From: a virus
Direction: 5' to 3' (one strand)
Virus record (IMG/VR): IMGVR_UViG_3300044966_000278
Coordinates: 1 to 32,256 of that record
Length of the DNA: 32,256 nt
This document shows, in pieces, positions 878-14,123 of the stretch. A program made the translations under genes and the position numbers. The notes under the pieces are model-generated. The model saw nothing but the letters and a program-made list of their open reading frames with translations. It was not told the origin of the DNA and searched no databases. How positions within the stretch are numbered: the first letter of the stretch is position 1; each line of letters begins with the position of its first letter.

Positions 878-1390
878 TTACCCCTCCGTATCGAATAGTG
901 TTGTTGTCTGGTTGTTTCTATCTTGGTGGTCTGTATCGATTGGTTCTCGCAGCCTGTATTCCCATCTGATTTTGGGAGCGGTAGATTGTGCTGCGCTTCG
1001 ATCCCTCTTGTCCGTGTCCCACGATGCGTGTCTCTTCTGTTCTGACGCAACGCTCCAGCCCGACGCTTTGTAGATAGTTCCGGCGTGAGCCTCTGTGTCC
1101 TGATAGGAAATAAGAATTGCTATGTGTGGCATTTCTTTTTTGATCCACTTCCGCATATAGCCCAACATTCGCGAAGCGGTATTTGCTGGGCAATCGTCTG
1201 CTATTGCCATGCGCCTTAGTTCAAGCATCTGCCTTCCATACTTTAGGCGATTCGCAGCAATCGGAGACGACCATATCGCTGTGGCGAAAAACAATCCCTC
1301 AAACTTGGCCACAAAACAAACGTAGTCTCTATTCCTAACTACGTTAGACCATTCGATAATCGGGAACCTACTGTGCCACTTCGCATTGAG
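878..1390 (-). CDS. Mom-like DNA modification protein (GNAT fold); start unclear
   Basis: The protein contains WHSRFP, then AIWSSPIA, LELRRMAIAD, NTASRML, LISYQD and GTIYKASGW. These line up with the phage Mu Mom pattern (LELNRMAF, a Ser-rich helix, SF-D, GTIY-ASGF). Mom is a GNAT-fold enzyme that converts adenine in phage DNA to a carbamoylmethyl derivative, protecting it from restriction. The stop is TAA at 878-880 and the next gene's ribosome site overlaps it. No ATG, GTG or TTG lies in frame between the tRNA-like gene (ends 1431) and WHSR at about 1378. The left limit given is only where family-like sequence begins. The frame stays open through the tRNA to a TTG at 1528. A frameshift or non-standard initiation is possible. 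Confidence 0.72.
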   Translation of the reverse strand, partial: LNAKWHSRFPIIEWSNVVRNRDYVCFVAKFEGLFFATAIWSSPIAANRLKYGRQMLELRRMAIADDCPANTASRMLGYMRKWIKKEMPHIAILISYQDTEAHAGTIYKASGWSVASEQKRHASWDTDKRDRSAAQSTAPKIRWEYRLREPIDTDHQDRNNQTTTLFDTEG

Positions 1391-1430
1391 TGTGCATGCA
1401 AGATTGACGCTGCATGGAGAAAATGAGAAC

Positions 1431-1506
1431 TGGAGCGGAGAGGTCGGGATCGAACCGCCGTCTTCAACTTGGAACAGTTGTTGTGTTTCCACTACACCAT
1501 CCCCGC
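1431..1506 (-). tRNA. tRNA-Gly(TCC)-like gene with two extra bases
   Basis: On the minus strand a cloverleaf can be drawn: acceptor GCGGGGA with TCTCCGC (one G-T pair), D stem GTGT/ACAC, T loop TTCGATC, and an encoded discriminator T plus CCA. The overall form resembles bacterial tRNA-Gly with anticodon TCC. Two departures are seen. The anticodon arm pairs CAAC with GTTG around an 8-base loop TGTTCCAA instead of 7 bases. The T stem GGCGG pairs with CCGACC only if the A is bulged. It lies between the RuvC-like gene and the Mom-like gene. It may be a decaying gene, or a functional oddity such as a four-base decoder. Confidence 0.65.
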
Positions 1507-1535
1507 GTGTTCGCTCACTATACAACAAGTTCTCG

Positions 1536-5978: not shown

Positions 5979-6167
5979 TTACCTCTTCCTTTCGATGATG
6001 TAGTGCTCCGTTGATCCGGAGCGGCTGATGAACGTGACGTTTCCTTTCTTGTTCATCAGGTCGTGCGCCTCGCTTGTTGCCCCGACGACGTGTTCGGTGT
6101 TGCCGATCCAGACGTAGGCGAGGCTGCCCAAGTTGGGGCGGGTGATGCTAGCGGGTGTCTGCTGCAT
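5979..6167 (-). CDS. small hypothetical protein, 62 aa
   Basis: A short basic beta-rich protein (LAYVWIGNTEHVVGATSEAHDLMNKKGNV...). It is the first gene after the five-hairpin gap. Unlike its neighbours it has no visible Shine-Dalgarno in front of the ATG at 6167. Instead a TGAGGT-loop-ACCTCA hairpin ends 16 bases upstream. A later in-frame ATG at residue 38 is an alternative start. Translation may be controlled by the structured leader. The family is unknown. Confidence 0.55.
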   Translation of the reverse strand: MQQTPASITRPNLGSLAYVWIGNTEHVVGATSEAHDLMNKKGNVTFISRSGSTEHYIIERKR

Positions 6168-6181
6168 AGTCGTATGGTAGT

Positions 6182-6338
6182 TGAGGTTTCTTACCTCAGA
6201 TGTTTGGGGTTTGTAAATCTTGGCACCCCTCTGGCTGCGGGGAAGGGGACGCTAGCCAGAGGGGGAGAGACAGCCACTTGTCTCATCAGCGGCGAGAAGG
6301 GGAGCCGCTGCCAAGTTGAGCAGGCACACCCTACCTGC
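6182..6338 (-). ncRNA. five-hairpin structured region, candidate regulatory RNA
   Basis: The gap 6,168-6,358 has no gene but five successive inverted repeats: 6182-6198 (6 bp, 5-base loop), 6226-6264 (11 bp plus 3 bp, one bulge), 6267-6284 (GAGACA/TGTCTC), 6287-6310 (7 bp) and 6320-6338 (5 bp). The loops of the second and fourth are 10 bases each and differ at one position; read on the minus strand they are TCCCCTTCCC and TCCCCTTCTC. These are complementary to the GAAGGGG leader in front of six early genes. The minus strand is assigned because the flanking genes run that way. If transcribed from the plus strand, the loops would instead mimic the leader, like a decoy RNA. No promoter is evident, so it may be processed from the operon transcript. 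Confidence 0.45.
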
Positions 6339-6358
6339 GTGCGCCTATGGTAGCAGGC

Positions 6359-6544
6359 CTACGCGCCTGTGTCGGACCCGCTGGTGTTGCGGATTCTTCC
6401 GAACTTGCGTGCCTTCTTGAGTGCTTCCGCCATTCCCTTGCGGTAGTCGACTCCGGCGTCCATGTTGACGACGGTGATCTTCGACCCGTCTTTGCGGTAC
6501 TTGACTGTTCCGACTTTGTCTACCTTTTTTCTTTCCATGGTCAT
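6359..6544 (-). CDS. small basic hypothetical protein, 61 aa
   Basis: MTMERKKVDKVGTVKYRKDG followed by a short strand and a Lys/Arg-rich helix. There are two possible ATGs six bases apart; the first overlaps the upstream TGA as ATGA and is used. It is very basic and might bind nucleic acid. Downstream of its stop the five-hairpin region begins. There is no family match. Confidence 0.6.
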   Translation of the reverse strand: MTMERKKVDKVGTVKYRKDGSKITVVNMDAGVDYRKGMAEALKKARKFGRIRNTSGSDTGA

Positions 6545-6894: not shown

Positions 6895-7094
6895 GGCTCT
6901 TCCTCCGGGTTCTGTCGGTAGTAGATGCTGAGCATCAGGTCGGGCAACTTCTCGTCGCCGTCCTGCGATGCCTCGTACAGTGCGCGGTTCTCCTCGGGGG
7001 TGAGGTCGTCTGCGTCGACGATCAGCATGTCGTGGGCTGCGCATCCGCCGTGCGAATGATCAGCCATGTTATACCACAATATATTCTTAGCCAT
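6885..7094 (-). CDS. small hypothetical protein, 69 aa
   Basis: MAKNILWYNMADHSHGGCAAHD then an acidic helical part (DLTPEENRALYEASQDGDE). The ATG at 7094 follows AGGAAGGAAC; the longer frame would run into the hairpin upstream and is rejected. It is the first gene after the terminator-like hairpin of the DUF932 gene, so it may start a new transcription unit, though I see no promoter. The family is unknown. Confidence 0.62.
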   Translation of the reverse strand: MAKNILWYNMADHSHGGCAAHDMLIVDADDLTPEENRALYEASQDGDEKLPDLMLSIYYRQNPEEEPCG

Positions 7095-7123
7095 CTTTTT
7101 GTTCCTTCCTGTCGGGGTGTTGA

Positions 7124-7163
7124 CCACCCCCGCCCAGAGTGATGGATAGTCGGGCGGGGGTGG
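7124..7163 (-). terminator. perfect 12-bp hairpin after the DUF932 gene
   Basis: CCACCCCCGCCC at 7124-7135 and its exact complement GGGCGGGGGTGG at 7152-7163 flank a 16-base loop, starting 7 bases beyond the DUF932 stop. This is a very stable GC-rich stem. No U-tract follows on the minus strand, so it may be a weak or factor-dependent terminator, a 3' stabiliser, or a processing site. Confidence 0.6.
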
Positions 7164-7169
7164 ATTCGG

Positions 7170-8183
7170 TTAGGCGCTGAGCGCCACTGCCACGCTGCGA
7201 TCCTTGAGCGTGGTGGTCTGGTTGGCACCGAGCAGGTTCTTGTCGATGAACTTGTCGTCGGAGCGGTGGTTCTTGCTCCAGTCGACGTACTCGGCGACGG
7301 CCTGCACGAAGCCCCACTTGGTGTGCTTGATGTTGGCGAGGTTGTCGACGTCCCATGCTGCGTGGATGGCATCGCGTGTGTTCTGTGCGATGGTCAGTCC
7401 GCGCGTGCTCTCGTCATCCTTCGGGGTCGGGAGCGGGACGAGCATCTCCAGCATGCGGTCGAACGAGATGCGGTTGATCGGCTGTGCGATGAGCGTGTCG
7501 CCGAGCGTCTGCAGTTCGTCGAAGTAGGCGTTGCTGAAGCCGAGCATGTCGCGCGCATCGCGTACCTTGTCGGTCACGTTCGGCGTGTGCCTACCCTTCC
7601 ACATGTTCTTGGACTCTTTCATGCTCCACTGTAGCGTGTTCTGGCAGACCACTCGGATCGGCGTGGTGTAAACGCTGAGTGCCGTGTTCCCGTCGTGCCC
7701 GTTGCAGAGGGTGACGAACGGGTCGATGCGCTCGTCGGGGTCGCCGCCGATCAGGATGTCCCTGTTCAGGCGGGCGAGTGCCCAGATCTTGCGCCCGTTG
7801 TAGAGGCTACCGGCGGTGTGGTAGTGCGCGTCTCCCTTGCCGATGATCTCGTCGAAGAAGTCGAAGGCGTCGACGTTTTGGATCACCTTGTAGTGGGGTG
7901 TCGCGATACCGAGCGCCTGTCCTGTATCCATGCGGACGTTCGCTACCTTGTTGTGGACCTCTGTCTCGGTGTAGTCGTCGGGCTCGTTACCGTACTCGTC
8001 GATGTTGTCGGCCCCGATGTGAACGTAAATGGGGTGCTGCTCCACCGTCCAGTCTAGTCCGGCTAGGCGGATGGCCTCTGCGCTGGTGACTACGTCCTCG
8101 TCGATGACGGTGCCGAGGCGGTGCCATGCGGGCTCGCGGTTTCCGTAGAACGCCTTGTCGTGCTCCATGATTGCGTGACTCAT
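7170..8183 (-). CDS. DUF932 phage/plasmid-like protein, 337 aa
   Basis: The N terminus (AFYGNREPAWHRLGTVIDEDVVTSAEAI) and the following pattern of short strands and helices (YKVIQNVDAFDFFDEIIG, IWALARL, VCQNTLQW) are those of the DUF932 / TIGR03299 'phage/plasmid-like' family. Members occur in phages and plasmids of many bacteria; their biochemical role is not established. Length is typical of the family. It is a single-gene unit with its own repeat cassette upstream and a hairpin downstream. Confidence 0.85.
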   Translation of the reverse strand: MSHAIMEHDKAFYGNREPAWHRLGTVIDEDVVTSAEAIRLAGLDWTVEQHPIYVHIGADNIDEYGNEPDDYTETEVHNKVANVRMDTGQALGIATPHYKVIQNVDAFDFFDEIIGKGDAHYHTAGSLYNGRKIWALARLNRDILIGGDPDERIDPFVTLCNGHDGNTALSVYTTPIRVVCQNTLQWSMKESKNMWKGRHTPNVTDKVRDARDMLGFSNAYFDELQTLGDTLIAQPINRISFDRMLEMLVPLPTPKDDESTRGLTIAQNTRDAIHAAWDVDNLANIKHTKWGFVQAVAEYVDWSKNHRSDDKFIDKNLLGANQTTTLKDRSVAVALSA

Positions 8184-8259
8184 GTCGTGCTCCCTTCGTT
8201 GGTGTGGTGTAACCGTATCACGATTGTGGCTACGGTTTTGTTCGGGTTTTGTAAGGGGC
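8184..8259 (-). promoter_or_regulatory. cassette promoter before the DUF932 gene
   Basis: In gene sense: two 11-base units at 8238-8259 (degenerate copies of AATCCTTACAA), the dyad AACCGTA...TACGGTT at 8211-8237, then TACACC and a GAAGGGAGC leader before the ATG at 8183. No clean TATAAT box is seen in this copy. It aligns with five other cassettes at 8.75-11.17 kb. Confidence 0.6.
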
Positions 8260-8283
8260 GCCCGGCGTGATTGCCGAGCACCC
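8256..8283 (-). terminator. hairpin after the 152-aa gene
   Basis: In gene sense GGGTGCTCGGC pairs with GCCGGGCGCCC (11 bp with two G-U pairs) around a 6-base loop, starting 8 bases past the stop at 8291. The adjoining sequence is the 11-base repeat of the next cassette, with no clear U-tract. It probably separates the two transcription units. Confidence 0.55.
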
Positions 8284-8290
8284 CCTCGTG

Positions 8291-8749
8291 CTAGTCCTCT
8301 TCGACGTGCGTCACTTCGGCGTCGTAGTACTCCACCTCTGTGTCGATGGAGTCGTAGTGGCTCACATCGATGGTGTCGACACGTCCCAGCGCCTCGTCGC
8401 GGGCGTCGTCCTCTCCGTTCGCCTCCACCTGAAAGGTGATCGTGACGGGAACGCTGACGGTCACGTTGTACGTTTTCGTCAGGCTGATGCCGACGAGGTC
8501 GCGGACAATGTCGACGCGGTCGTCGTTGCCGTCGGCCCAGTTGCGGAGGTCGTCGATCCAGTCCGCCTCGCAGTCCTTCGCGAAGGGTGCGAACACGTCC
8601 GCGATCAGGCTGCGGAGCATGCCGATGGTGTCGTCCTTGCGCATGCTCCCCTCCTTGAGCAGGTGGATCCTACCCTTGAGCAGTTCGATATCTCCGCGGA
8701 GAACCTCCGGGTCAGCGGTGTCGGTGGTGGTGGTGTCGGTGTCGGTCAT
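8291..8749 (-). CDS. hypothetical protein with helical N-terminal and acidic beta C-terminal part, 152 aa
   Basis: Start MTDTDTTTTDTADPEVL at 8749 directly follows the shared leader; the longer frame runs through the promoter cassette and is rejected. Residues 15-45 form a likely coiled coil (LRGDIELLKGRIHLLKEG). The second half alternates strands (TYNVTVSVPVTITFQVEA) and then a very acidic end. No family is recognised. It is expressed from its own cassette. Confidence 0.65.
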   Translation of the reverse strand: MTDTDTTTTDTADPEVLRGDIELLKGRIHLLKEGSMRKDDTIGMLRSLIADVFAPFAKDCEADWIDDLRNWADGNDDRVDIVRDLVGISLTKTYNVTVSVPVTITFQVEANGEDDARDEALGRVDTIDVSHYDSIDTEVEYYDAEVTHVEED

Positions 8750-8827
8750 GGTGTAGATCCCTTCTCGTGGTGTACTTACAGTGTGCCACAAGATTGTGGC
8801 TTGATTTGTAAATCCTTTGTAAGGATT
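8750..8827 (-). promoter_or_regulatory. cassette promoter before the 152-aa gene
   Basis: Two 11-base units at 8806-8827, a perfect 7-bp dyad GCCACAA/TTGTGGC at 8785-8800, a CACACT -10-like box, TACACC, and a GAGAAGGGA leader. The stop codon of the 72-aa gene (8826-8828) lies in the repeat. Confidence 0.65.
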
Positions 8828-9044
8828 ACTCGGCGTCGTCCGGGTAGTCGTAATCCCCGGCATACTCATTACGCATCGCCGTACTGTGCGCCTCGGTGAT
8901 GAGTCGGCGCAAGAACCATATATCCTCTCGGCTAAAAAAGTCGTATGAACTGAGGGATAAAGCGGTCAGTCCGTCGATGATGGCGGCCATCTCTCGGATG
9001 GTCAGTGTGTCGGCGATGATGTCGTGCCGCTTCTCTGTACTCAT
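8826..9044 (-). CDS. hypothetical helical protein, 72 aa
   Basis: Start MSTEKRHDIIADTL at 9044 follows the GAGAAGGGG leader by 5 bases; the longer frame includes cassette DNA and is rejected. The protein is predicted all-helical (MAAIIDGLTALSLSS, WFLRRLITEA) with an acidic Tyr-rich tail. No family is recognised. The stop codon is embedded in the 11-base repeat of the following cassette. Confidence 0.62.
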   Translation of the reverse strand: MSTEKRHDIIADTLTIREMAAIIDGLTALSLSSYDFFSREDIWFLRRLITEAHSTAMRNEYAGDYDYPDDAE

Positions 9045-9119
9045 GTGCACCCCTTCTCTTGGTGTAATCACAGTATGCCACAAGATTGTGGCTCTAGTTG
9101 TAAGGATTTTGTAAGGATT
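9045..9119 (-). promoter_or_regulatory. cassette promoter before the 72-aa gene
   Basis: The best-preserved copy. Two perfect tandem 11-mers are at 9098-9119 and a dyad GCCACAA/TTGTGGC is at 9077-9092, identical to the 8.79 kb copy. CATACT then TACACC follow, and then a GAGAAGGGG leader. The complement of that leader occurs as a 9-base stretch in the loop of the hairpin at 6287-6310. The GP88-like stop codon lies at the end of the repeat. Confidence 0.7.
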
Positions 9120-9933
9120 ACGCAGCCTGCAGGAACCCGTGCCGCGTACCCTTCTGCCCGCGCATGCGTCCCTTCGCGCGGAGCCCTACAATAACGCCGC
9201 CCGGATCAGTAAATCGGAGGTCGTGCGCATCGCCGTCGACGACGGGGTAGGTGTCGCCCCATGGTGCCGTCCACGTTGCGGGCAGCGGTGCCCCCTTGCG
9301 CGTCGCGAATACCACGGCCACCCTGTAGCCCGCGTCTAGGTAGCGGCGTGCTGCTACGCCATCGCCGCCGGGATACGAATACGTCGTATCAATCCCGTGC
9401 TCTGCCGCGTCAGGCGTCGGCCGCTTGGTGTAGTCGTACAGGACGCAACCCTCCGCGATAGCGTGCGCTACCACCTCGGGGAACTTGCGGTGCCAAGCGA
9501 TGTCCGAGGTTCCGTTCAGGCGCAGGGCGGGTGTCAGACCGTGGCGGCGTGCGCGTCGCGCGTGCGCGGTGATCTCCCGACATAGCCGCGCGCTGAACCC
9601 TTCCGGGTCTAGGATCATCGCCGCCGTGCGACGGATCCGGCTAGCCTGAATCGTGTTCCACCCGCTAGCGTCGAGGCTGATACCACCCCTGCCGCTAGTG
9701 TTCAGGCATCCGGCGGTGCACTCGGCACTAGCCCACGGGCAGACATTCGCGCCTGACATTGTCGCCGGTGCGAGGTGCAGGACGGCGGGCAAGTAGCCCA
9801 TATCCGCCGCGCCCTTCGCCACCTTAGGGTTCGTCGTGGTGAGCAGGGATCCTGTCCCCTTCACCGGGTAGTGCGTATCGATTGCGGCTACCGTCGCGTT
9901 GACCGCGCGTAGCACTAGATTACTGTAAGCCAT
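9118..9933 (-). CDS. GP88-like phage protein, 271 aa
   Basis: The sequence shows YLPAVLHLAPATMSGANVCPWA followed by Cys72 and Cys76, then RLNGTSDIAWH (about 139-148), YDYTKRP, VAVVFATRKG, PVVDGDAHDLRF and VVGLRAKG-type ending. This order is that of a widespread phage family typified by mycobacteriophage gene product 88. Three closely spaced cysteines (65, 72, 76) and invariant Asp/His/Arg suggest a metal-binding enzyme, but no reaction is known to me. It has its own cassette promoter. The start at ATG 9933 follows a GAAGGGG leader. Confidence 0.75.
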   Translation of the reverse strand: MAYSNLVLRAVNATVAAIDTHYPVKGTGSLLTTTNPKVAKGAADMGYLPAVLHLAPATMSGANVCPWASAECTAGCLNTSGRGGISLDASGWNTIQASRIRRTAAMILDPEGFSARLCREITAHARRARRHGLTPALRLNGTSDIAWHRKFPEVVAHAIAEGCVLYDYTKRPTPDAAEHGIDTTYSYPGGDGVAARRYLDAGYRVAVVFATRKGAPLPATWTAPWGDTYPVVDGDAHDLRFTDPGGVIVGLRAKGRMRGQKGTRHGFLQAA

Positions 9934-10010
9934 TCCGATTCCCCTTCGTTCGGTGTAGTCACACTGTACCGCACGATTGCGGCACGATTTGTAAGGATTT
10001 TTTATGGGTT
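9934..10010 (-). promoter_or_regulatory. cassette promoter before the GP88-like gene
   Basis: One perfect and one degenerate 11-mer at 9989-10010, dyad CCGCA/TGCGG at 9969-9982, TACAGT -10-like box, TACACC and GAAGGGGA leader. The stop codon of the 75-aa gene sits in the second repeat. Confidence 0.65.
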
Positions 10011-10236
10011 ACGGGCTGAGTAGCCCCGCCGCCTTGGTCTCCCTGCGCCATTTCGCGGCCGCGTTGCCGTAGTCCTGATACAGGCTATGAATGGTGCCCC
10101 ACGCGTGCAGACTCATGGTCTCGCCGAGCACCTCCTCGGTGTAGCCCAACTTCGACATAGCGTCGCATGCCGCATCCATCGCATCTAGCGCCCGGTTCAG
10201 CGCGTACGCGGCTTCTCGGTATTCCTTCGTGATCAT
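10009..10236 (-). CDS. hypothetical helical protein, 75 aa
   Basis: MITKEYREAAYALNRALDAMDAACDAM and onward is almost entirely helical, with a central LHAWGTIHSLYQDYG. No family is recognised. The ATG at 10236 follows the AGAAGGGG leader of its own cassette, the one with a consensus TATAAT, so it may be the most strongly expressed of the small early genes. Confidence 0.65.
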   Translation of the reverse strand: MITKEYREAAYALNRALDAMDAACDAMSKLGYTEEVLGETMSLHAWGTIHSLYQDYGNAAAKWRRETKAAGLLSP

Positions 10237-10312
10237 CCTGCACCCCTTCTATTGGTGTAGCCACATTATACCGCACCCGAACGGTGCAGTTTGTAAGGAT
10301 TTTGTAAGGATT
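10237..10312 (-). promoter_or_regulatory. cassette promoter with consensus TATAAT
   Basis: Perfect tandem 11-mers at 10291-10312, dyad GCACC/GGTGC at 10273-10287, a consensus TATAAT at 10265-10270 (minus strand), then TACACC and AGAAGGGG leader. No TTGACA lies at the normal distance. The dyad occupies the spacer and the repeats the upstream activator position. Confidence 0.75.
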
Positions 10313-10399
10313 CGAACACACTCGCCGGGTCTAAACGCGGGCACACTTCTCCCTTCCTCCTGCCCTCCGGGCGCACTCCGAACCGCCTAGCCAATCCAA

Positions 10400-10443
10400 T
10401 GGGGGGTGCCGGGAATCGAACCCGGCAAGGCCAGCCACCCCCC
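10400..10443 (-). other. tRNA acceptor/T-arm minihelix (possible tRNA remnant or attachment core)
   Basis: On the minus strand GGGGGGT (10443-10437) pairs with ACCCCCC (10407-10401), followed by an A. GCCGGG (10426-10421) and CCCGGC (10413-10408) close a canonical T loop TTCGATT. Only ten bases (GGCTGGCCTT) stand where the D and anticodon arms should be. It begins 7 bases after the stop of the 39-aa gene. No CCA follows. It could be a deleted tRNA, the tRNA-derived part of an attP site, or an RNase P/Z processing signal. No integrase is in the window. The flanks 10,313-10,399 hold nothing else I can recognise. Confidence 0.6.
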
Positions 10444-10449
10444 ACGCGC

Positions 10450-10569
10450 CTACCCGATACGCAGCACCCGGCACGCCTCTCGCGCCTGCTCGCGCTCCTC
10501 CGGCGTCAGCACCTCCCCCGCCTTCAGCCGCGCCACGAACGCCGCTAGACGCTTCTCCACCGGACTCAT
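10450..10569 (-). CDS. short hypothetical protein, 39 aa
   Basis: The product starts MSPVEKRLAAFVARLKAGEV and continues with an Arg/Glu-rich helix (TPEEREQAREACRVL). Its ATG overlaps the preceding TGA (ATGA) and its codon pattern matches the neighbours. It looks like a helix-turn-helix-sized fragment but no family is recognised. It is the last gene of the three-gene unit driven by the 11.1-kb cassette and is followed by the tRNA-like minihelix. Confidence 0.6.
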   Translation of the reverse strand: MSPVEKRLAAFVARLKAGEVLTPEEREQAREACRVLRIG

Positions 10570-10859
10570 GCCGCCACCGCCATACGCGCCGCACGCTGCG
10601 CCCACTTCTCCCGCGAACCCTGCCGATACCCGCCGCGCTTACCGTGCTGCGACTTCCCCACCGGCCGCACCTTGCACGCCCACGCAGGCACCCGCGCATC
10701 CGGCAAAACCGTAACCGTGAACACGCGACCATCGATCACGCGGAACCCCGCACCCGCAGGCACCGGCACGCCGTCACGCTGAACGCCCACGAACCGGCCA
10801 CCCGCACCGCGCAGCATCACGCCGCCACCGAAGGCAGGCACCCCCGTAGGGGCGATCAT
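10566..10859 (-). CDS. basic hypothetical protein, 97 aa
   Basis: The first 55 residues are glycine/valine-rich strands (GGGVMLRGAGGRFVGV, FRVIDGRVFTVTV), and the rest is strongly basic (GKSQHGKRGGYRQGSREKW). Local GC is higher than in most of the window. It overlaps both neighbours by four bases (ATGA). It may bind nucleic acid through its tail. No family is recognised. Confidence 0.62.
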   Translation of the reverse strand: MIAPTGVPAFGGGVMLRGAGGRFVGVQRDGVPVPAGAGFRVIDGRVFTVTVLPDARVPAWACKVRPVGKSQHGKRGGYRQGSREKWAQRAARMAVAA

Positions 10860-11086
10860 GCCTGCACCCCCAATCCCTGAACCGCAACGCGGTAGCCATT
10901 GTCATACGCCCGTTCGATCAGCACAACTTCCCCGCGGGTCGCGCACGCATCGAACGCCTGTAGCAAACGTCCGCCCCAATAATCCAAGGCCGCACGATCC
11001 TGCGAACCGTGGTACAGCCGGGCACAAGCGAAACCCGCCTTCCACCCCTCCTGCTCCCGCAACGTCTGTTCGTCGTTCTTCGTCAT
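10856..11086 (-). CDS. hypothetical protein, 76 aa
   Basis: Start MTKNDEQTLREQEGW at 11086 is set by the GGAAGGGG leader; the longer frame reads through promoter DNA. The product looks helical (GFACARLYHGSQDRAALDYW) and ends VAVQGLGVQA. It is first gene of a three-gene coupled unit. The family is unknown. Confidence 0.65.
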   Translation of the reverse strand: MTKNDEQTLREQEGWKAGFACARLYHGSQDRAALDYWGGRLLQAFDACATRGEVVLIERAYDNGYRVAVQGLGVQA

Positions 11087-11170
11087 ACCGCACCCCTTCC
11101 ATTCGGTGAAACCACACCATACCACACCCCAACCCCCCCAAACCAAACCCTTACACAATCCTTACAACCC
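11087..11170 (-). promoter_or_regulatory. divergent copy of the early cassette promoter
   Basis: A TATGGT box, a TCACC element and a GGAAGGGG leader match the other cassettes. The 11-base repeats (11151-11167 region) are present but in opposite orientation, and the dyad is replaced by a purine-rich stretch. This is the outermost leftward promoter. The GGAAGGGG version is complementary to the loop of the hairpin at 6226-6264. Confidence 0.55.
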
Positions 11171-11656
11171 CACCATGCGGAGGGGATGAGAAGGTACGCG
11201 CGCGCGACGCCAACGCCCGAGCGAGAACCCCACCCGACGCGCCCGACCATGTACCCATCCTCGGGCTTGTTTTTTTGTGGGTAAGAAGATTGTGTAGGCT
11301 GCTTCTTGCGTTGATTGGATGGGTTTTCTTTGCCCCTCCCTAGCCTTTTGGCTAGCCAACGTCCGTTTAGCGTGCTTGTTGTCCCTGCACGATCCGACCT
11401 GTCCGTTTCCGGGGTGTGGTCTGGTCGTCTGATGGCGATCCGTGGTGCGGTGTTCGCGTCAGTGCTCCGACTAGGCGTGCTGGTTCTGTGTGCTTGACCC
11501 TTGAGCGGGGGTTGTTGCGTTGTTGTTCTAGTCTAGCGCGTCTTTGCCATGTCGATGATTCTTTTGTGTGTGTACATTGCACTGTATGTATGTCGTGTGT
11601 ATGTACATGTTCGACATATCGTGCATTTGTTCGATTTTTCGTGTATTGTCACGATA
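11171..11656. other. gene-free divergent control region
   Basis: I see no coding potential on either strand here. It contains the plus-strand terminator-like hairpin at 11241-11276, a CTAGCC-TTTT-GGCTAG hairpin at 11340-11355, an AAGAAG/CTTCTT hairpin near 11284, and from 11565 on a T/G-rich tract with repeated TGTACAT and TGTATGTA words. It separates the early leftward and late rightward transcription blocks and probably contains the late promoter, but no convincing -35/-10 pair is visible. Confidence 0.6.
11241..11276 (+). terminator. rightward intrinsic terminator-like hairpin
   Basis: GCCCGA (11241-11246) pairs with TCGGGC (11261-11266) and is followed by TTGTTTTTTT. It would stop plus-strand transcripts. 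No plus-strand gene lies upstream, so it either ends a short RNA or blocks antisense read-through into the late region. Confidence 0.55.
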
Positions 11657-11971
11657 ATGAAGAAGCAGATGCGTACATACGGTATGTACGAAGAAGAATT
11701 GCGCCAGTTTAACGAGGCTCAGACCATTCGTCGCGGAAAAAAGAAGGATGGTTATCCTCCTTCGTATTTTGCTGATGCGTTTGAGTACACGCAGCCGAGG
11801 CGTAATAGTCGTGGTTGTGGCGACGTAACCGTTATTAACCAGAACACTGGCGAGGTAAAGAAAGTTCCGGCTGATGAAGTCACGCGTGTGTATCAGCATT
11901 ATCGTGGACAGGCTGGTGGGCGCTATGCTTTGCGTACAGATCGTATTGATCTAGCCGAAGAAAGCGCGTAA
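11657..11971 (+). CDS. first gene of the late block, hypothetical, 104 aa
   Basis: MKKQMRTYGMYEEELRQFNEAQ then a basic stretch (RRGKKKDGYPP), a glycine/asparagine-rich centre and VTVINQNTGEVKKVPADEV. It has no recognised family. The start is uncertain: ATGs at 11657, 11669 and 11684 all lack a clear Shine-Dalgarno, and a 19-base palindrome covers the second and third. The stop overlaps the next ATG (TAATG). As the gene before the terminase subunits it may take part in packaging or regulation. Confidence 0.6.
   Translation: MKKQMRTYGMYEEELRQFNEAQTIRRGKKKDGYPPSYFADAFEYTQPRRNSRGCGDVTVINQNTGEVKKVPADEVTRVYQHYRGQAGGRYALRTDRIDLAEESA
11672..11690. repeat. 19-base palindrome, possible operator
   Basis: CGTACATAC-G-GTATGTACG is a perfect 9+1+9 inverted repeat. 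Related TGTACAT/TGTATGTA words occur at about 11571, 11583 and 11600. This is consistent with a binding site for a dimeric regulator at the head of the late block, or an mRNA hairpin that hides the start. Confidence 0.55.
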
Positions 11972-12393
11972 TGGTCAGCGAAGAAACGGAAGAGAAGTAT
12001 TTTGGCGAGGACGCTAAGCAAAGCATCCTAGAAATGGCCAAACGACCTATTGCTCTGCTGACTATTGCCCAGTCGCATGGCATTCCACCATCCACGCTTG
12101 CTAATCGCGTAGAAGAAGAGGACGAGTTTGCCCTCGCGTTTCAGAAAGAACGAGCAAACATTCAGTCAAAGATCATTGATCAGGTGATGGAGAAGGGTGA
12201 TGGTGATTGGCGCATGTGGTTCCAAGTCGCAGAGCGCCTATTTCCCAGTGGTTACGCCAAAGAAAAAGCCAACACGATTAAGATTGAGGCTTCAGCGTTT
12301 GATTGGAACCAGTTGGGCCGCTTGACGGAGAAGGATCTTCCAAAGCGCGAAGTCAAGCACATCGAAGCAGAAAGCGTAGAAGTCAATGACTGA
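11971..12393 (+). CDS. putative terminase small subunit, 140 aa
   Basis: An N-terminal helical region has the form of a helix-turn-helix (ILEMAKRPIALLTIAQSHGIPPSTLANRV), followed by a charged helix and a phage-small-terminase-like region (DWRMWFQVAERLFP-GYA). It ends shortly before the large terminase with one 46-codon gene between. Small terminases recognise the packaging start and oligomerise. The assignment rests on position and this HTH-like part, not on a firm family match. Confidence 0.62.
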   Translation: MVSEETEEKYFGEDAKQSILEMAKRPIALLTIAQSHGIPPSTLANRVEEEDEFALAFQKERANIQSKIIDQVMEKGDGDWRMWFQVAERLFPSGYAKEKANTIKIEASAFDWNQLGRLTEKDLPKREVKHIEAESVEVND

Positions 12394-12526
12394 ACCATTC
12401 GACACGAATCGTGACCCGGGCGACGAGCAACCGCCCACTAAGGGCAAAGATTATTACCTCGTACTAGACAAAAACGGATGTCTGGATATCCCAAACGATC
12501 AGGAAACTGATGTCTCGTCAGATTGA
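12386..12526 (+). CDS. short acidic hypothetical protein, 46 aa
   Basis: MTEPFDTNRDPGDEQPPTKG then YYLVLDKNGCLDIPND. It overlaps the upstream stop by 8 bases and the terminase start by 17 bases, so translation is tightly coupled. The compact KDYYLVLDKNGCL strand pair looks genuine. The function is unknown; it may assist packaging. Confidence 0.6.
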   Translation: MTEPFDTNRDPGDEQPPTKGKDYYLVLDKNGCLDIPNDQETDVSSD

Positions 12527-14123
12527 CGCACAAGAAAAACGCCGCAAACCCAAAGCCGGATCCAAAGCACGACTCGTCAACGATCTTCCAAATGACCAGT
12601 TTGACCTCCGAAAAAAAATTCTTTTGGATCCCGATTGGATTTACCCAAATCTTCTGGGAATGCAGCCGTGGAGCAAACAGTGGGAAGTAATCCGTAGCGT
12701 CAGAGACAACAAGCGCACCGCTGTACGCTCATGTCACGGCTCCGGCAAGACGGCTGTTGCCGCCGCCGTCGTCCTAGAGTTCATGCTACAAGGGCCATGC
12801 CGAGTGATCACTACTGCCCCAACGTGGTCGCAGGTTGAACAGTTGCTCTGGCGAGAGATCGCGCAACGTCATCGACATATTGATCCCGCCTTCGGAAAAC
12901 TCTTCAAGACGCAACTTGAAATAGCCCCAGACTGGTTCGCCATCGGACTCTCCACTGATACTCCGGAGCGTTTTCAGGGCCACCACGCCCCCAGAATGCT
13001 GCTGGTAGTTGATGAGGCGAGTGGTGTAGATGACGCTATCTACGAAGCCTCCGAAGGATTCCTTACCGCCGAAGGCGCACGCGTCCTCCTTATCGGAAAC
13101 CCGACCCGTACTGCTGGAACGTTCTACCGAGCGTTCAAACCAGATTCTGGATGGCATAGAGTACACATTAGCGCATTCGACACGCCGAATTTTACGGGCG
13201 AAGAGGTACACGAAAACGCAGCACGCGCCCTCGTCACACCAGAATGGGCAGCAGACGCAGCAACACAGTGGGGGCTAGACTCGCCCGCTTACAAAATCCG
13301 CGTACTAGGAGATTTCGCGGAAACAACGGGCCGCCAATTCTTCCAATTCCTACAGAACCTCGCCTATACCGACCCCAAGAAGAAGGGGCGCATGCTGGGC
13401 CAACCCGTAAAAGGTGGAACCGTCCGCTTCTACGACGACACAAGCGGCCCAATCAAGATCTATCATCACCCAGTCAAAGATCGACGCTACATCGTCTTTG
13501 CCGACGTAGCCGGAAGTGTTACAGAAGACAATTATCAGGCCCGCGTAACAAATTATGACTCAACTGATGGCTCTGACTACGCCGCCGCAGTCGTAATTGA
13601 CGCAGAAAACGGTCAAATCTGTGCCGAATACCACGGACGCCCAGCACTAGACGAGTACGCAGAAGAACTAGGCCGCATCGCACACACATACAACAAGGCA
13701 CTACTAGCCGTAGAGCGAAACAGCATGGGACAAGCCGTCCTACTCATGCTAACCACAACATACAACTACCCAAACTTGTACAGGCCAAGGCATATGAACA
13801 GCACAATGCCATCAATGGACAAGAAAATTGGCTGGTCTACCAACTCTGCTACTAGGCCACGCATGCTTAGCGCACTACAAGCCCAGATCCGTGATCATCC
13901 AGAAACAATCTGCAGCGAACGCCTAATTGACGAGTTGCGCACGTTTGTATACGACAAGCGTGGACGCGAAGGCGCTGATTACGGGTGCCACGACGACATG
14001 GTAATGGCCGCTGGCGGAGCATTCGCCGTTATGCAAGAAACGATGTACAAGCCAATTGACCTCAGGCCGCAGCGGCGTAGCAGATCTACTACAACCATCA
14101 CAAAACGCGCACCACGCGTCTGA
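12510..14123 (+). CDS. terL: terminase large subunit, 537 aa
   Basis: The ATPase half has Walker A SCHGSGKT (about 74-81), Walker B MLLVVDEAS (about 163-171) and the coupling motif LIGNPT (about 194-199). The RNase H-like nuclease half has FADVAGS (Asp332), AVERNSMG (Glu402) and a late HDDMVMA. This enzyme translocates phage DNA into the prohead and cuts concatemers. Length is normal. The N terminus is basic (RRKPKAGSKAR). It lies after the putative small subunit and before the portal block. Confidence 0.96.
   Translation: MSRQIDAQEKRRKPKAGSKARLVNDLPNDQFDLRKKILLDPDWIYPNLLGMQPWSKQWEVIRSVRDNKRTAVRSCHGSGKTAVAAAVVLEFMLQGPCRVITTAPTWSQVEQLLWREIAQRHRHIDPAFGKLFKTQLEIAPDWFAIGLSTDTPERFQGHHAPRMLLVVDEASGVDDAIYEASEGFLTAEGARVLLIGNPTRTAGTFYRAFKPDSGWHRVHISAFDTPNFTGEEVHENAARALVTPEWAADAATQWGLDSPAYKIRVLGDFAETTGRQFFQFLQNLAYTDPKKKGRMLGQPVKGGTVRFYDDTSGPIKIYHHPVKDRRYIVFADVAGSVTEDNYQARVTNYDSTDGSDYAAAVVIDAENGQICAEYHGRPALDEYAEELGRIAHTYNKALLAVERNSMGQAVLLMLTTTYNYPNLYRPRHMNSTMPSMDKKIGWSTNSATRPRMLSALQAQIRDHPETICSERLIDELRTFVYDKRGREGADYGCHDDMVMAAGGAFAVMQETMYKPIDLRPQRRSRSTTTITKRAPRV

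Follow-up and report, generated by a model that had tools for sequence, protein, structure and literature searches.

A repeated promoter-like unit with a candidate OmpR/PhoB-type box before leftward genes of a probably actinobacterial phage

Why should neighbouring phage genes each be preceded by the same short arrangement of repeats, and what could act on it? The question is raised by positions 8184-11170 of the virus record IMGVR_UViG_3300044966_000278, whose entire stretch of 32,256 bases was taken as the analysed sequence (the window). An earlier note, made from the letters alone, had described here a six-copy cassette of two 11-base repeats, a dyad, a -10-like box, TACACC and a GAAGGG leader. 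This description appears largely right, and six neighbouring early genes or gene groups seem each to own a copy of one promoter design. We read each unit as an activator-dependent sigma-A promoter of the extended -10 type that lacks a -35 box and would carry an OmpR/PhoB-type box, one per gene, and we put the probability of this reading at roughly two in three (0.68). To our knowledge, a mechanism has so far been lacking for repeated elements before phage genes such as the start-associated sequences (SAS and ESAS) of mycobacteriophages; the repeats described here resolve base by base into a putative promoter with a fixed activator box, which allows direct predictions on transcription starts and on the regulator.

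The repeated unit and its anatomy

Genes in the window run leftward below ~11.1 kb, and rightward structural genes follow from ~11.5 kb up; the presumed early status of the leftward genes comes from gene order and content. The 11-base repeat AATCCTTACAA is found exactly at 8817, 9098, 9109, 9989, 10291 and 10302 (all minus strand) as well as at 11157 (plus strand), with perfect tandems at 9098-9119 and 10291-10312 just as first described. With up to two mismatches allowed, the window holds 14 matches against 4.8 expected, a number reached in none of 100 shuffles. A composite pattern (repeat-N5-repeat-21N-A-NNN-T) was matched 8 times where 1.4 matches would be expected, a count that no shuffle out of 100 attained; units 1 to 5 account for five of the matches. 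TATAAT (in unit 5), TACACC and GAAGGG are all present as well. The units and their parts are as follows, with positions in the window:

8205-8259, minus strand: unit 1, before the DUF932 gene (7170-8183); repeats GCCCCTTACAA (8249-8259) and AACCCGAACAA (8238-8248), both imperfect; spacer 8218-8237; palindrome AACCGTA (8231-8237) / TACGGTT (8211-8217); -10 box TACGGT (8212-8217); predicted +1 at 8205
8773-8827, minus strand: unit 2, before a 152-residue gene (8291-8749); repeats 8817-8827 and 8806-8816; palindrome 8785-8800; -10 box CACACT (8780-8785); predicted +1 at 8773
9065-9119, minus strand: unit 3, before a 72-residue gene (8826-9044); perfect repeats 9109-9119 and 9098-9108; palindrome 9077-9092; -10 box CATACT (9072-9077); predicted +1 at 9065
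9956-10010, minus strand: unit 4, before the gp88-family gene (9118-9933, family PF17338); degenerate repeat AACCCATAAAA (10000-10010) and repeat 9989-9999; palindrome GCCGC/GCGGT; -10 box TACAGT (9963-9968); predicted +1 at 9956
10258-10312, minus strand: unit 5, before a 75-residue gene (10009-10236); perfect repeats 10302-10312 and 10291-10301; palindrome GCACC/GGTGC; -10 box TATAAT (10265-10270); predicted +1 at 10258
11109-11167, minus strand: unit 6, before a 76-residue gene (10856-11086); repeats 11146-11156 and 11157-11167 on the plus strand, inverted relative to the gene and ~4-5 bp further upstream; extended -10 element TGG-TATGGT (hexamer 11116-11121); predicted +1 near 11109; G-rich spacer without palindrome
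6167-6216, minus strand: possible unit 7, before a 62-residue gene (5979-6167), absent from the earlier note; TTACAA (6211-6216), AAACAT (6200-6205), palindrome TGAGGT/ACCTCA, -10 box TACCAT (6174-6179)

The claim of one design in six copies thus stands for the repeated unit as such and fails for unit 6, where the repeats are reversed and the dyad is absent; likewise, the repeats are as described overall, except that the upstream one is degenerate in unit 4 and both are imperfect in unit 1. The proposal had been made to depend on conservation of the repeats in related phages, and units were indeed found before the same genes in close and more distant IMG/VR relatives (L005, L007-L014, L027, L029 and L031-L036, with orthologous genes downstream). 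Looser scans of viral contigs outside this phage clade returned just chance matches within coding DNA, and an exact 20-mer in L006 was rejected as a unit because it resembles coding DNA.

Alignment of 20 units, drawn from the window and from related phages, yields a common anatomy that reads, in gene sense, TnACAA, N5, TnACAA, 20 nucleotides, the -10 hexamer, six bases, ACACC, GAAGGG and ATG. The repeat period is 11 bp in the tabulated units, and the distance from repeat to -10 box is 20 nucleotides in 13 of 15 tabulated forward-repeat units and 21 in the remaining two, the form seen in L034 and L035. Within the -10 hexamer, A2 and T6 are each present in 20/20 units; TG occupies -15/-14 in 15 units and CG in the other five. 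ACACC with its A at the predicted +1 is found in 18/20 units, and this A lies exactly 7 nucleotides beyond the -10 box in nearly all of them, which supports the earlier suggestion of a start near TACACC. Unit 1 has two ACACC in succession (TACACCACACC), the first as part of TACACC; the predicted +1 falls on the second, supporting the register. If the -10 box is set at -12 to -7, the repeats span -54 to -33 with their cores centred near -41. Information in the repeat logo is concentrated on A8, C9, A10 and T6; position 7 is looser, as are most bases of N5. The repeats lie ~55-80 bp upstream of the ATG, and the ribosome-binding site is separate from them. A role as replication origin or iterons was rejected, since the copies extend across 3 kb and keep fixed distances to the gene starts. 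A scan of the whole region with the standard -35/-10 consensus found no promoter.

Stop codons had been reported to lie inside the repeats, and the overlap exists; at 8826-8828 and 9118-9120 it amounts to just 2 nucleotides of the upstream repeat, while the stop at 10009-10011 overlaps the degenerate repeat of unit 4. Relatives have TAA, TAG or TGA near the same spot, which points to close packing. The related idea that gene and cassette behave as modules is only partly borne out: orthologous genes can carry a different unit, as for gp88, whose unit varies in sequence between lineages, or a truncated one, as in L010 and L011, where the unit before the 72-residue gene has lost its palindrome and -10 box and kept repeats and leader.

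The reversed repeats of unit 6 are kept in L010, L011 and L013. Its G-run spacer (GGGGGGGTTGGGG, 11122-11141, minus strand) is kept in L010 and L013 and lost in L011. A seventh, weaker unit at 6174-6216 is suggested by its spacing, which equals that of the other units, and we call it just possible because 1.4 composite matches are expected by chance. Its predicted +1 falls on the A of the ATG, which would make the transcript leaderless, and the stretch is almost unaltered in L010 and L013. Between two leftward genes nearby, the non-coding region 6230-6360 (minus strand) holds several strong inverted repeats.

The spacer palindrome

Most units hold a palindrome in the spacer, with arms of 5-7 bp, that is probably a second layer in the form of an operator or a hairpin. 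When the units are aligned, one centre stands out with 68 Watson-Crick pairs out of 91 possible (36 at the next best centre), and permuting the right halves among units gave p=0.003, a value that is just a guide because related units are not independent. The palindromes stay symmetric as they change, for instance from GCCAC/GTGGC to GCCGC/GCGGT. Unit 6 has no palindrome and yet retains TGTGG-TATGGT, which argues that the right arm is mainly the extended -10 element (TRTGn). The dyad of varying sequence is therefore real and covarying in several units, with the qualification that half of it largely belongs to the promoter and that one unit lacks it.

It is conceivable, if tentative, that the palindromes (roughly -30 to -12) serve as operators, in line with the earlier proposal of repressors for the dyads, and that a repressor would shut the promoters later in infection. 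Their centre is fixed in most units, they sit over the core promoter, and stem p values range from 0.004 to 0.07 in the clear cases. Against an operator speak the different palindrome sequences of the units, the absence from unit 6, the arms in L034 and L035 that lie 4 bp further apart, the right arm already explained by the extended -10 element, and the lack of a repressor or integrase among the scanned phage proteins (see below).

Somewhat unlikely in our view is that the palindromes act not in DNA but as hairpins in inter-gene read-through RNA, affecting mRNA processing or stability. Pairing preserved by symmetric substitutions would suit such a role, as would the predicted folding of clear palindromes at -7 to -12 kcal/mol and the frequent inter-gene hairpins in the relatives L034 and L037. 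However, the palindromes lie upstream of the predicted start and would hence be transcribed by read-through alone, and the mismatches show no surplus of G-T pairs. Altogether, the properties of the palindromes fit both operator and hairpin and decide for neither.

What may act on the repeats

In the activator-dependent reading, host sigma-A RNA polymerase would use each extended -10 promoter with the help of an activator. A dimer of an OmpR/PhoB-type winged-helix protein would bind the two TnACAA copies, 11 bp apart on the same helix face at about -54 to -33, and from its centre near -41 would touch RNA polymerase in a class II position. This geometry makes the activator role that had been suggested for the repeats likely. 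Transcription would begin at the A of ACACC and produce a short leader with the GAAGGG ribosome-binding site. One copy per gene would let a single regulator turn on the whole block together, with relative strength set by differences between the copies: whether the -10 box begins with C or T, whether TG or CG precedes it, and whether the second repeat is perfect or degenerate. Like known extended -10 sigma-A promoters, the phage units have TRTGn before a TANNNT-like box and no -35 box; unlike them, some have CG in place of TG and a -10 box that begins with C, and it is from these that we infer a need for an activator.

The host of this phage of uncultured origin is probably an actinobacterium, as suggested by relatives of the annealing protein, which are confined to phages of Mycobacterium, Streptomyces and Arthrobacter, and by those of the DUF932 protein, the majority of which come from actinobacterial phages. 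Scans of phage proteins against Pfam and PHROGs turned up neither a DNA-binding regulator nor an integrase or a repressor, so that the activator would be either a factor of the host or a phage protein that escaped recognition; a phage RNA polymerase or sigma factor was likewise not found among the proteins scanned.

A host response regulator of the OmpR family such as MtrA might control each early gene via class II promoters, so that a host stress or growth signal would gate the start of infection; we regard this as a tentative proposal. MtrA is highly conserved among actinobacteria (PMC3353115) and recognizes RTAACAATttnRTAACAAT in Corynebacterium glutamicum, where it activates from sites upstream of -35 (PMC3353115). 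Its site in Streptomyces coelicolor is KTRACC-N5-GTKACN (PMC5650626), with GTnACC-n5-GTnAC given as a site form (PMC5650626, PMC13189361), and the invariant positions of the Streptomyces venezuelae half-site are just T1 and C4 (PMC13189361). MtrA and other OmpR/PhoB boxes share with the phage box direct repeats of 11-bp period, the core TnAC-n7-TnAC, the same loose base, and a location upstream of the core promoter for activation. This core is matched at 6/6 positions in units 2, 3, 5 and 6 and at 5/6 in unit 1, with unit 4 deviating, and occurs in 8 places in the 32 kb. However, the half-sites differ (C/T-TTACAA in the phage versus R-TAACAAT or GTnACC), and the phage box takes the -35 position at a fixed distance of 20 nucleotides, unlike MtrA boxes. 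Although the unit would work in the manner of an OmpR/PhoB-type activated promoter, we do not class it as an MtrA box, since the complete consensus does not fit when tested. Should a response regulator of the host prove responsible, early gene expression in an environmental phage would be tied to a signal of its host, and the box might serve as an aid in recognising which hosts uncultured phages infect.

Several observations weigh against an OmpR/PhoB-type box served by the host. The repeats of unit 6 are reversed relative to its gene. RTAACAATnnnRTAACAAT, the C. glutamicum form, has no match with up to three mismatches, the units reaching 10-12 of 16 positions (the S. coelicolor form likewise does no better than chance). 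Across 395 actinobacterial genomes (the class of G008), the promoter geometry is not enriched (3 matches against 1 for the control). TTACAA-N5-TTACAA is in 2.6-fold excess in 397 genomes of the phylum (147 versus 56), an excess that stems partly from low-GC genomes with clusters near hydrogenase genes. Lastly, the nearest isolate phages resolve the host no further than "actinobacterial".

The phylum-wide excess was rejected as a host clue since it clusters at hydrogenase or hypB-like genes and Pit-type transporters and thus holds no information on the phage's host. These clusters comprise GTTACAA-N5-TTACAA copies between a hypB-like gene and hydrogenase-like genes in low-GC genomes (L155-L170), with a recurrent ACCTA/ACCTT spacer, and, in three genomes of 60-63% GC (L146-L148), a TTACAA-AACC[CA]-TTACAA element that is followed by a conserved block and precedes a gene for a Pit-type transporter.

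Immediate-early genes are usually located beside the divergent region. It is unlikely, though worth considering, that the activator is instead phage-encoded, as a small protein of unknown fold, and that the units are middle rather than immediate-early promoters. Family matches are missing for many of the small leftward proteins, and the exact arrangement is confined to this phage clade and not enriched in host genomes; however, no DNA-binding family was seen among the scanned proteins, and the units adjoin the divergent region.

A promoter of the MerR type, in which TTACAA would be a -35 box with an over-long 20-nucleotide spacer untwisted by a palindrome-bound regulator, would suit the 20-nucleotide distance and the spacer palindrome of most units but is very improbable, given that TTACAA agrees with TTGACA at only 3/6 positions, that the units have no -35-like hexamer, that the second repeat stays unexplained, that unit 6 has no palindrome, and that no MerR protein was found among the scanned proteins.

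The earlier note had also compared the cassette to the start-associated sequences of cluster K mycobacteriophages, which recur ahead of many genes, in some places include the stop codon of the preceding gene, and have inverted repeats in about half of the cases (PMC3203893; see also PMC12699233), the SAS GGGATAGGAGCCC lying directly upstream of the start codon (PMC3203893). The likeness extends to a different sequence repeated shortly before gene starts and overlapping upstream stop codons; translation-associated elements of this kind are nevertheless a most improbable explanation, since GGGATAGGAGCCC with up to three mismatches gave 7 matches in the window against 7.0 expected (the sole two-mismatch match, 9846-9858, is intragenic), the element does not include the ribosome-binding site, the spacing of -10 box and start is promoter-like, and the 17-bp imperfect inverted repeats are absent, the element being unrelated in sequence and a predicted promoter.

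Other elements and genes of the phage

Further leader- and RNA-like elements were seen in the window and in relatives. A tRNA-like minihelix at 10400-10443 (minus strand) has acceptor stem GGGGGGT/ACCCCCC and T arm GCCGGGTTCGATTCCCGGC but lacks the D and anticodon arms. It is conserved in L010, L011 and L013, with GGGGAGT/GCTCCCC in L010 as a compensating change; neither ARAGORN nor Rfam called it. Another tRNA-like element, unlike the first, lies at ~8470-8560 of the more distant relative L037 and combines the acceptor CGATTCGC/GCGAATCG with a hairpin that resembles a T arm. Small genes in L034 (1-1800) and L037 (8880-10000) are preceded by another repeated leader, composed of a long hairpin of variable sequence, a CCGGC...GCCGG hairpin, GGAGGGAAC or CTAAGGAAGGGAACACC, and ATG, of which 8255-8295 of the window may hold a remnant.

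Identifiable genes of the window encode the DUF932 and gp88-family proteins, the terminase large subunit, the portal and an SU10-like major capsid protein, besides a recombination set of single-strand annealing protein, PD-(D/E)XK nuclease, SSB and RuvC-like resolvase. A Mom-like DNA modification protein is encoded at 878-1528 (minus strand; phrog_1384, E=1.4e-24; Pfam Mom), and the start of its reading frame is overlapped by a weak tRNA with undefined anticodon (1435-1507, minus strand). In the close relative L041, the tail region encodes a protein of 2186 residues (6955-13515) with an ADP-ribosyltransferase domain.

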